Shown here: piece by piece, positions 31,417 to 35,357 of the stretch
Position numbering within the stretch: position 1 is the stretch's first letter
Layout: every line of letters begins with the position of its first letter
Source: Shewanella fidelis ATCC BAA-318
GTDB lineage: Bacteria > Pseudomonadota > Gammaproteobacteria > Enterobacterales > Shewanellaceae
Assembly (NCBI RefSeq): GCF_000518605.1
Contig: NZ_JADX01000017.1
Location: 62,001-126,000 of the forward strand
Length of the DNA: 64,000 nt
Direction: 5' to 3'
The notes under the pieces: model-generated
Database searches by the model: none
Told to the model about the DNA's origin: nothing
The model's input: only the letters and a program-made list of their open reading frames with translations
Made by a program: the position numbers and the translations under genes

Positions 31417-33330
31417 ATGAGCAATTGGTCTATTGATGATGCACGCGCAAGTTATAACGTAAATCACTGGAGCCAAGGACTTTACGGTATTAGCGATGAC
31501 GGTGAGGTGACAGTGTCACCGGATCCTAGCCGCCCAGACTGTAAAATTGGTTTGAACGAAATGGCGAAGGATATGGTTAAGTCAGGCGTGGCTTTACCCG
31601 TATTAGTGCGTTTCCCGCAAATTTTGCATCATAGAGTAAATAGCCTTTGTCAGGCATTTAATCAGGCAATTCAAAAGTATCAATACGAAAATGATTACTT
31701 ACTTGTATACCCGATTAAAGTTAACCAACAGCAAACGGTTGTTGAAGAGATCTTAGCTAGCCAAGTCTCAAAAGAGGTGCCGCAGTTAGGTTTAGAAGCC
31801 GGTAGTAAGCCAGAATTGATGGCTGTATTGGCGATGGCGCAAAAGGCCAGCTCTGTCATTATTTGTAATGGCTACAAAGATAAAGAATATATTCGCCTTG
31901 CTTTAATCGGTGAAAAGCTAGGTCACAAGGTTTATATCGTTCTTGAGAAGATGTCAGAACTCAAGGTCGTGCTTGAACAAGCAAAAGAACTTGGTGTAAC
32001 ACCACGTCTTGGCTTGCGTGTGCGTTTAGCATTCCAAGGTAAGGGTAAATGGCAGGCAAGTGGTGGTGAGAAATCTAAGTTTGGCTTAAGTGCTGCTCAG
32101 GTTCTGCAAGTGATTAATTCACTTAAACAAGAAGATATGCTTGATTCGCTAGAGTTATTGCATTTCCACTTAGGTTCGCAAATTGCCAATATTCGCGATA
32201 TCCGTCAAGGTGTGAGTGAAGCTGGTCGATTCTATTGTGAGCTAATGAAGCTTGGCGCAAACGTTAAATGTTTTGACGTGGGTGGTGGCTTAGCGGTTGA
32301 TTATGATGGTACGCGTAGCCAAAGTAGTCACTCTATGAACTACGGCCTAACAGAGTACGCCAACAACATCGTTAGTGTATTGACTGACATGTGTAAAGAG
32401 TACGAACAGCCGATGCCGAGAATCATCTCTGAATCTGGTCGTTACTTAACTGCACATCACGCAGTACTATTGACAGATGTAATTGGTACAGAAGCCTACA
32501 AGCCTGAAGATATTCAGCCGCCAGCAGAAGATGCACCGCAGCTGTTACATAATATGTGGCAGTCTTGGGTAGAAGTGAGTGGTAAAGCTGATCAACGTGC
32601 ATTGATTGAGATTTTCCATGATTGTCAAAGCGATTTGGCAGAAGCGCACTCATTATTTGCTGTTGGACAACTTGGTTTAGCTGAGCGCGCATGGGCAGAG
32701 CAGGTTAACTTGCGTGTATGTTACGAATTACAAGGTAGCATGAGCTCTAAGTATCGTTTCCACCGTCCAATTATTGATGAATTGAATGAGAAACTAGCAG
32801 ACAAGTTCTTTGTTAACTTCTCGTTGTTCCAATCATTACCAGATGCGTGGGGTATCGATCAGGTATTCCCTGTCATGCCACTTTCAGGTCTAGATAAGAA
32901 GCCTGAAAGCCGTGCGGTAATGCTTGATATCACCTGTGACTCAGATGGTACAGTTGATCAATATGTTGAAGGCCAAGGTATTGAAACAACATTGCCAGTA
33001 CCAGCATGGACTCAAGAAAGCCCATATTTAATTGGCTTCTTCTTAGTCGGTGCATATCAAGAAATTTTGGGTGATATGCATAACTTGTTTGGTGATACTA
33101 ACTCAGCGGTTGTTCGTTTAGATGATGACGCGCGTACTAATGTTGAGTCGGTTCTTGCAGGTGATACCGTTGCTGACGTTTTACGTTATGTAAACTTAGA
33201 TGCAGTATCATTTATGCGTACTTATGAAGAGCTAGTGAACAAGCATATTGCCGAAGATGAACGTGCTAATATTCTTGAAGAACTACAACTAGGTCTGAAA
33301 GGTTATACCTACCTAGAAGATTTTTCGTAG
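31417..33330 (+). CDS. speA: Biosynthetic arginine decarboxylase
   Basis: 637 residues. SpeA decarboxylates arginine to agmatine, the first step to putrescine. The PLP lysine is K101 in 'VYPIKVNQQ', and '[15 protein letters not shown]' and '[13 protein letters not shown]' (about 287-299) are typical alanine-racemase-fold decarboxylase motifs. The catalytic Cys region near the C-terminus shows 'LDITCDSDG'. The length fits the SpeA family (E. coli 658). It is followed by an AdoMet decarboxylase and agmatinase, which makes a polyamine cluster. Confidence 0.96.
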
Positions 33331-33482: not shown

Positions 33483-34403
33483 ATGTTTTTTGAAGGTTCA
33501 GAAAAGAAATTAGTTTTGCAACTCCACCCCAGTGCCCCGTCATTAAGAGCGTATCCACGTGGCTTTTGGCAACAGGCATTAGCGATGGCAGATGCCGCTA
33601 TTTTATCGGATCTCAGTAATGCATATTGTGATGCCTATGTATTAAGTGAATCAAGCATGTTTGTATGGCAACATAAGTTGCTATTAATTACCTGCGGTAA
33701 AACACGTTTAATTGATACTGTTGCGTTTATCATTGAAAAAATCGGCGCAGGCCTTATATCAGAATTAAATTATCAGCGTAAAAGTGAGTTCTCACCGCAT
33801 CTACAAGCTACGCGCTTTGAAGATGATGTAGAGTTGTTGAAGGCGCTCGTCCCCGGTACGGCTTATCGTATCGGTCATTTAGATAGCCATCATCATTACC
33901 TTTATAGTGCAGCAGGCGTAACTAAGCAGGCTCAAAGTGCTTGTTTGTTGATGTATCATATTGAAGGTGAGGCTGCGCAATATTTACGCAGTGCTGAGCA
34001 AGAAAGTAGTTATATACGCCGACTACTCAATTTAGATCGTTTGCTACCACAATTTGAGTTCGACGATCACCTGTTTCAGCCCTGTGGATATTCAATCAAT
34101 GGATTGTTTGAAGATAAATTTTTGACCATACATATCACGCCTCAAGAGCAAAGCTCTTACGTGAGTGTCGAAACAAACGTGAACTTTTTACAATATCCGT
34201 TCAATATTTTTGCTGAGTTACTCAAAGTATTGAACCCCAGCAGTTGGGACATCATTGGGCTGAATATGCCAATAGATCACACAGGCTTTCTTTCAAATAG
34301 AAGGGTAGCAAGTTGTGATCTACAGTTAAACCAGCTAAATGATTTTAATTACTATCACTATATTCAGGCTGAAAGCGAAACCTTAATAGCCGAAGTACTG
34401 TGA
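33483..34403 (+). CDS. S-adenosylmethionine decarboxylase proenzyme, eukaryote-type
   Basis: 306 residues resembling eukaryotic AdoMet decarboxylase (class II), not E. coli SpeD. The N-terminus 'FFEGSEKKL' matches the conserved FFEG-E of the human enzyme. 'YVLSESSMF' (52-60) is the self-cleavage site, where Ser57 would become the pyruvoyl group; Cys71 lies in 'ITCGKT'. 'CGYSINGL' (Ser202) and 'TIHITPQ' (His215) are the processing residues, followed by 'SYVSVETN'. Human HITPE has Gln here instead of Glu. It makes decarboxylated AdoMet for spermidine. It lies between speA and speB, with short gaps. Confidence 0.92.
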   Translation: MFFEGSEKKLVLQLHPSAPSLRAYPRGFWQQALAMADAAILSDLSNAYCDAYVLSESSMFVWQHKLLLITCGKTRLIDTVAFIIEKIGAGLISELNYQRKSEFSPHLQATRFEDDVELLKALVPGTAYRIGHLDSHHHYLYSAAGVTKQAQSACLLMYHIEGEAAQYLRSAEQESSYIRRLLNLDRLLPQFEFDDHLFQPCGYSINGLFEDKFLTIHITPQEQSSYVSVETNVNFLQYPFNIFAELLKVLNPSSWDIIGLNMPIDHTGFLSNRRVASCDLQLNQLNDFNYYHYIQAESETLIAEVL

Positions 34404-34427: not shown

Positions 34428-35357
34428 ATGACCACTATTGCAGATAAGCCAGATTATTCGCTTTATTCAAATGCATTTGGTTACTTAAGACAACCGCTAG
34501 ACTTTAAACCTCTTGAAGGCGATGCGGATGTAGTGGTTTTAGGCTTACCATTTGATATGGCAACGACAGGCCGTTCAGGTGGCCGTATGGGCCCTGGTGC
34601 TATTCGTAACGCATCAGTAAACCTAGCGTGGGAAGAAACACGCTGGCCGTATCAGTTTAAGCTAAGTGAACATATTAAAGTTGTTGATGCAGGTGATCTT
34701 GTTTACAACTGTGGCGACTCAGCTGACTTTACTCAGCGAGTTGAAGATTTCGCAACCAAGATTCTTGAAGCTGATAAGGCAATGCTAAGTTTTGGTGGTG
34801 ATCACTTCGTTACCTTGCCACTATTACGCGCTCACTATAAAAAGCACGGTAAAATGGCTTTACTTCATTTTGATGCGCACACAGATACCTATAGCCAAGG
34901 CAGTAAGTACGATCATGGTACAATGTTCTACCATGCACCAAACGAAGGCATTATTGCTGCTGAAAACTCAATTCAAGTGGGTATTCGTACAGAGTACGAT
35001 ACTGCGAATCACCTGTTTGAAGTGATTGACGCCGCAGCCGCTAATGAAATGACTGCTGATGAGATCGTTGCCCAGATCCGTAAGCGCGTAGGTGATATGC
35101 CGCTATACGTAACATTTGATATCGACTGCTTAGACCCTGCGTTCGCACCAGGTACTGGTACGCCAGTGTGTGGTGGCTTAACCAGCGATAAAGCAATGAA
35201 GATTATTCGTGGCCTTAAAGGCATGAAGATTGTCGGTATGGACGTTGTTGAAGTTGCACCTGCATATGATAGCGCTGAGATCACTGCACTTGCTGGCGCA
35301 ACATTAGGCCTAGAGATGTTGCACGTTTGGGCTGAATCAAACGGCAAAATCAAATAA
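34428..35357 (+). CDS. speB: Agmatinase
   Basis: 309 residues of the arginase/agmatinase family. The binuclear Mn ligands are in 'GGDHFVT' , '[11 protein letters not shown]' and '[22 protein letters not shown]'. It hydrolyses agmatine to putrescine and urea, using the product of SpeA encoded upstream. A terminator follows its end, so the unit is speA, the AdoMet decarboxylase, and speB. The N-terminal '[22 protein letters not shown]' is typical of agmatinases. Confidence 0.96.

Follow-up and report, generated by a model that had tools for sequence, protein, structure and literature searches.

Class 2 (eukaryote-type) AdoMet decarboxylases (AdoMetDC) are not confined to eukaryotes. A passage of PMC10407285, with reference to Li et al. 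2019 (Biochem J 476:2579), describes the class 2 AdoMetDC of some bacteria as being of eukaryotic source. The headline, a class 2 enzyme in bacteria, is already published, and the gene described here, amd of Shewanella fidelis, is a further case. In the work of Li et al. the bacterial enzymes were reportedly active, and some are said to go together with a membrane/spermidine-synthase fusion and DUF350, with spermidine absent. A related system is a PspA-CesT/Tir operon with a 7TM-spermidine-synthase fusion, for which a section of PMC11237479 suggests aminopropylation of other substrates. For Shewanella gene clusters, the legend to Fig. 4 of PMC12283126 names ADC, SpeD, SpeE and agmatinase.

The amd gene and its product

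The window analyzed here is a 64,000-nucleotide stretch of the S. fidelis ATCC BAA-318 genome. Within it, amd (33483..34403, plus strand, as are all features given below) is an open reading frame of 306 amino acids with an ATG start and no internal stop. It begins 152 bp downstream of speA (31417..33330), which encodes a biosynthetic arginine decarboxylase (NCBIfam NF003763, 898 bits; TIGR01273, 867 bits), and ends 24 bp upstream of speB (34428..35357), which encodes an agmatinase (NCBIfam NF002564, 469 bits; TIGR01230, 289 bits).

The amd protein matches Pfam PF01536 with 190.1 bits (E 7e-56), well over the curated cut-off of 22.2, and amd is the single PF01536 gene of the genome. TIGR00535 covers residues 3–256 but, at 132 bits, stays under the 233.15 bits set as its equivalog cut-off; this is an NCBI annotation model and no definition of class 2. 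Human AdoMetDC was the top match among solved structures (E 3e-29). An AlphaFold2 model, for which 40 bacterial sequences were aligned (mean pLDDT 89.6, pTM 0.90), superposed on human AdoMetDC over 292 residues (Z 34.6, rmsd 2.4, 28% identity) and on potato AdoMetDC 1mhm with Z 22.9 (identity 20–21%). Model residues within 146–286 also matched the class 1b SpeD structures 2iii, 1vr7, 1tlu and 1tmi (Z 8.7–9.2). This likeness of the C-terminal half to the small class 1b SpeD is expected of a class 2 enzyme, and together with the whole-length human match it describes, in the model, a single chain of two SpeD-like units. In another genome, the C-terminal half of the class 2 AdoMetDC (G187:C60:5670-5879) matched the class 1 SpeD model PF02675 weakly (21.5 bits), which may be a remnant in the sequence of an origin from two units; this match, below the cut-off and inside amd, was not scored as SpeD.

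An earlier note on this DNA had listed the motifs FFEG-E, LSESSMF with Glu56-Ser57, Cys71, HITP and SYVSVETN, and all are present. The conserved Ser and His that it placed at 202 and 215 are present as well, although their numbers were off by two. Glu56-Ser57 (33648..33653; human Glu67-Ser68) is the predicted self-cleavage site and pyruvoyl source, with cleavage deduced from the family. Cys71 (33693..33695) aligns with human Cys82, Ser204 (34092..34094) with human Ser229 and His217 (34131..34133) with human His243. The five human positions E67, S68, C82, S229 and H243 are invariant in the bacterial relatives (116 of 116 rows). In the human enzyme Cys82 has a catalytic role, and Ser229 and His243 have processing roles; PDB 1jl0 is the H243A ester intermediate. 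PF01536, the predicted fold and the conserved active site bear out the eukaryote-type assignment of the earlier note and confirm the frame as a class 2 AdoMetDC proenzyme, for which self-cleavage and AdoMet decarboxylation are predicted from the family.

The nearest named relatives of the locus are Shewanella; toward S. pneumatophori the identity is 84% for amd, 98.7% for speA and 99.0% for speB. PF01536 carriers made up 52 of 247 genomes in a sample of the order, including 18/18 of the same genus. A sample of the class held a single match in 369 genomes, our own, and one of the phylum held ten in 398: our own, four of the same genus, four of the same order and one from another class, in which amd lies beside speE. 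This spread fits a patchy gene and does not establish a direction of transfer. Among the best 80 of 103 loci, the named carriers were Shewanella, Parashewanella, Ferrimonas, Paraferrimonas, Endozoicomonas, Marinomonas, Grimontia and a few others. We rejected a recent transfer into the species because the Shewanella rows (with Parashewanella) are one starred set of 62 in the gene tree and because the speA-amd order is common to relatives. The tree contained one eukaryotic row (human), on a long branch flagged by the tool.

Missing SpeE and the membrane-fused aminopropyltransferase

A search of the genome (4.80 Mb, completeness 100) for speE and a second SpeD, as the earlier note had proposed, found neither over cut-off. 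The top TIGR00417 match reached 105.5 bits against the curated 249.55, a second one 37 bits in a 258-aa frame, and PF02675 (class 1a/1b SpeD) gave no match at E 0.001. Of the canonical SpeD + SpeE spermidine module, SpeE is thus lacking. That the nearest spermidine synthase gene lies outside the window, as had been remarked, is true but understates the matter, with canonical SpeE missing genome-wide. The carboxynorspermidine route was rejected because nspC scored 32 bits against a cut-off of 409, and glutathionylspermidine use because PF03738 had no match in the genome.

The leading aminopropyltransferase candidate is the top TIGR00417 match itself, a 585-aa protein that combines a membrane part at its N-terminus with a PF01564 domain (110 bits) and that NCBIfam PRK03612 (polyamine aminopropyltransferase) matches with 665 bits. 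Its neighbors are PspA, DUF350, DUF2170 and a DUF4178-like gene. The whole cluster (L113:4212-11147, G000:C3) comprises an ion channel, a 109-aa protein, the DUF4178-like gene, PspA, DUF2170, the membrane-fused aminopropyltransferase and DUF350, as well as a 319-aa lipoprotein-like protein.

We followed the co-occurrence of these genes in the 247 genomes of the order sample. A PF01564 match of 89–138 bits in an open frame of 566–620 aa was counted as the membrane enzyme and one of at least 150 bits as canonical SpeE, with matches listed down to about 53 bits. Amd occurred in 52 genomes and SpeD over the cut-off in 55, never both. Among the matches listed, a decarboxylase accompanied the counted membrane enzyme in 68/68 genomes (amd in 46, SpeD in 22), and all 52 amd genomes had the membrane enzyme (46) or canonical SpeE (14), eight of them both. 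Within the genus, amd and the membrane enzyme were found together in 18/18 genomes, five of which also had SpeE. Many carriers are close kin, so a Fisher value for this co-occurrence overstates the evidence. Three genomes were exceptions: G024 and G046 have canonical SpeE without a decarboxylase, and G059 has SpeD without a counted aminopropyltransferase. Left uncounted were weaker matches of 55–59 bits in 516–541-aa frames (G086, G156, G180 and G201, genomes without amd or SpeD), one partial match (60 bits) in a frame of 574 aa from G215, which has SpeD, and 509–521-aa frames in G016, G041 and G096.

When the named amd genomes were searched at E 1e-20, 49/50 had an aminopropyltransferase (41 of membrane type, nine canonical, one both). 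The remaining one (L082/G278) carries amd with no aminopropyltransferase at this threshold, and the start of its amd is missing from the ORF, possibly an assembly problem. In G049, G118, G131 and eight other genomes of family f2, the membrane-fused aminopropyltransferase and a short SpeD homolog (frame of roughly 107 aa) are separated by a few hundred bases; the genome of the window lacks such a direct physical linkage.

These data bear on ordinary spermidine synthesis, in which the membrane-fused aminopropyltransferase would replace SpeE and convert putrescine from SpeA and SpeB to spermidine. The place of amd between speA and speB agrees with this, as do the equivalog label of PRK03612 and the decarboxylase in every counted membrane-enzyme genome. 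Yet five of the 18 same-genus genomes keep SpeE beside the membrane enzyme, suggesting that one cannot simply stand in for the other, and in the work of Li et al. the fusion reportedly failed to substitute for spermidine synthase in a deletion strain. We consider this explanation unlikely; amd probably feeds the membrane enzyme rather than spermidine synthesis. The earlier note had read spermidine synthesis from the position beside speA and speB. This lacks support here, as canonical SpeE is absent and, in the part of PMC12283126 on S. oneidensis, putrescine accumulates as the sole polyamine; it may well hold in SpeE-bearing Shewanella.

Putrescine pocket and evolutionary rate of amd

The human HITPE motif reads HITPQ in the amd protein, as had been noted, with Gln221 (34143..34145) at the position of human Glu247, which PMC3686867 has among its AdoMet-binding residues. 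The suggestion that this Gln might alter processing or putrescine activation does not single it out: the position is Gln in 79, Glu in 25, His in three and Ser in three of 110 counted relatives, and Gln is common in both SpeE groups (37/43 SpeE-bearing, 42/67 SpeE-less). Gln221 was rejected as a special feature, being commonplace in the family, and an effect peculiar to it is unlikely at an AdoMet contact.

The putrescine site differs more. A table of human putrescine contacts in PMC3686867 has Glu15, Asp174 and Thr176; Glu178 was assigned to the site from the PDB titles of the D174N, E178Q and E256Q mutants. In the alignments, Val11 (33513..33515) replaces human Glu15, and AQSAC 150–154 (33930..33944) stands for human Asp174-x-Thr176-x-Glu178, so that Ala150, Ser152 and Cys154 take the three positions. 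From the human-type acidic set (Glu15, Asp174, Glu178, Glu256), Glu230 (human Glu256) is all that is retained. Judged from these alignments, the loss bearing on putrescine activation sits in the Glu15/Asp174/Thr176/Glu178 pocket, away from Gln221.

Position 15 is Glu in 43/43 SpeE-bearing and 50/67 SpeE-less relatives, and positions 174 and 178 are both acidic in 42/43 against 20/67. The sole SpeE-bearing exception without the pocket is L045, a MAG. Parsimony gave three changes of the pocket state, eight at position 174 and five for SpeE, hence few independent origins, and an independent-pairs test of SpeE against the pocket found four pairs only and no significance. That pocket loss tracks the absence of SpeE is suggestive, not proven. 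Nor is pocket loss proof of a different acceptor, because plants make spermidine with a class 2 AdoMetDC although they are without the putrescine site. The missing plant site is given in a passage of PMC3686867. From the pattern we predict that putrescine has ceased to stimulate the enzymes of those SpeE-less species in which the pocket is worn. Another group of class 2 homologs (L149-L169, families f11 and f12; frames of 267–308 aa) comes from genomes without canonical SpeE and has Glu at human position 247, with an acidic residue absent at 178.

To compare rates, we fixed the tree topology to that of speA+speB for 41 rows from Shewanella and Parashewanella. L045 was scored SpeE-less here (9-kb locus without speE) and SpeE-bearing in the pocket count (match on another contig of the MAG). 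The ratio of amd to speA+speB branch length was 1.88 on 19 SpeE-bearing and 6.98 on 53 SpeE-less branches, about 3.7-fold higher. In three bins of matched divergence the pairwise ratios stayed apart, being at most 2.54 between SpeE-bearing and at least 2.91 between SpeE-less rows. The effect repeated with the clade of the window left out (medians of 1.93 over 59 pairs and 4.58 over nine pairs, respectively). Between the window and S. pneumatophori, amd has dN 0.096 and dS 0.609; the dN/dS of about 0.16 indicates that the gene is still under selection. In the literature searched on bacterial class 2 AdoMetDC, within which Li et al. 2019 did not fall, we did not find pocket loss with a rate shift after SpeE loss; this combination in SpeE-less Shewanella looks new.

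Fast evolution could be slow decay. Amd would then be a fading relic, weakly maintained after speE was lost and on its way out, with the faster SpeE-less branches and the vanished pocket residues as its marks. The invariant processing and catalytic positions, the open frame with its low dN/dS and the retention of amd throughout the sampled genus (18/18) speak against this, and we regard it as very improbable. Equally small is the chance that amd has acquired a new decarboxylase activity, for instance on arginine or ornithine, like bacterial class 1b SpeD homologs, a precedent described in part of PMC10407285. Such a shift would suit the fast evolution and the Glu247 to Gln exchange in the AdoMet site. 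Gln is, however, also usual in the SpeE-bearing relatives; the position of human Phe223 is Phe in 116/116 rows and that of Phe7 is Phe or Tyr in 114/116; an arginine decarboxylase already adjoins amd; and an aminopropyltransferase is present in 52/52 amd genomes of the order sample.

Proposed role of amd and comparison with known systems

Our preferred explanation, which we hold to be fairly likely, is that amd encodes a self-processing AdoMetDC in a lineage that has lost SpeE, that its putrescine pocket has been lost and that its product is used by the membrane aminopropyltransferase with a candidate acceptor other than putrescine. Amd was inherited within Shewanella, probably out of an ancestral speE-speA-amd-speB cluster. 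The products of its neighbors speA and speB make putrescine. After a putative loss of speE in the lineage of the window, amd would have been retained because its decarboxylated AdoMet serves the 585-aa membrane-fused aminopropyltransferase, which probably acts on an acceptor other than free putrescine. With putrescine supply and spermidine synthesis no longer coupled, AdoMetDC may have lost the activation pocket and evolved fast while keeping its processing and catalytic residues; it would still cleave itself and decarboxylate AdoMet, independently of putrescine. We counted against this explanation that a passage of PMC12979288 has Shewanella among the bacteria with an aspartate-semialdehyde spermidine route.

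More tentatively, and with somewhat less than even confidence, we suggest that repeated SpeE loss frees AdoMetDC from putrescine control, whereupon the pocket is worn and the enzyme re-tuned as a dedicated aminopropyl donor to a membrane-stress (PspA) modification system. If true, the evolution of amd would record how decarboxylated AdoMet came to be used independently of polyamines. The central question is what the membrane-fused aminopropyltransferase modifies, and Shewanella with and without SpeE offer a natural experiment. The locus also illustrates that operon position by itself can mislead on function.

Compared with the PspA-CesT/Tir operon outlined in PMC11237479, the genome has a similar cluster of PspA, DUF2170, the fusion, DUF350 and a DUF4178-like gene; here it lies on contig C3 and amd on C11, and the two are linked by co-occurrence alone. 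With the bacterial class 2 AdoMetDC of Li et al. 2019, as cited in the portion of PMC10407285 mentioned above, amd shares the protein class, and it differs in that the S. fidelis genome is without SpeE. The potato enzyme has the same fold, and the putrescine site is missing in plants too. From human class 2 AdoMetDC (PDB 1jl0/1msv) the amd protein differs in its length (306 aa against 334 aa for the chain of 1jl0), in the exchange of Glu247 for Gln and in the replacement of Glu15, Asp174, Thr176 and Glu178; the two share the Pfam family, the full-length fold, the cleavage motif and the conserved Cys, Ser and His.
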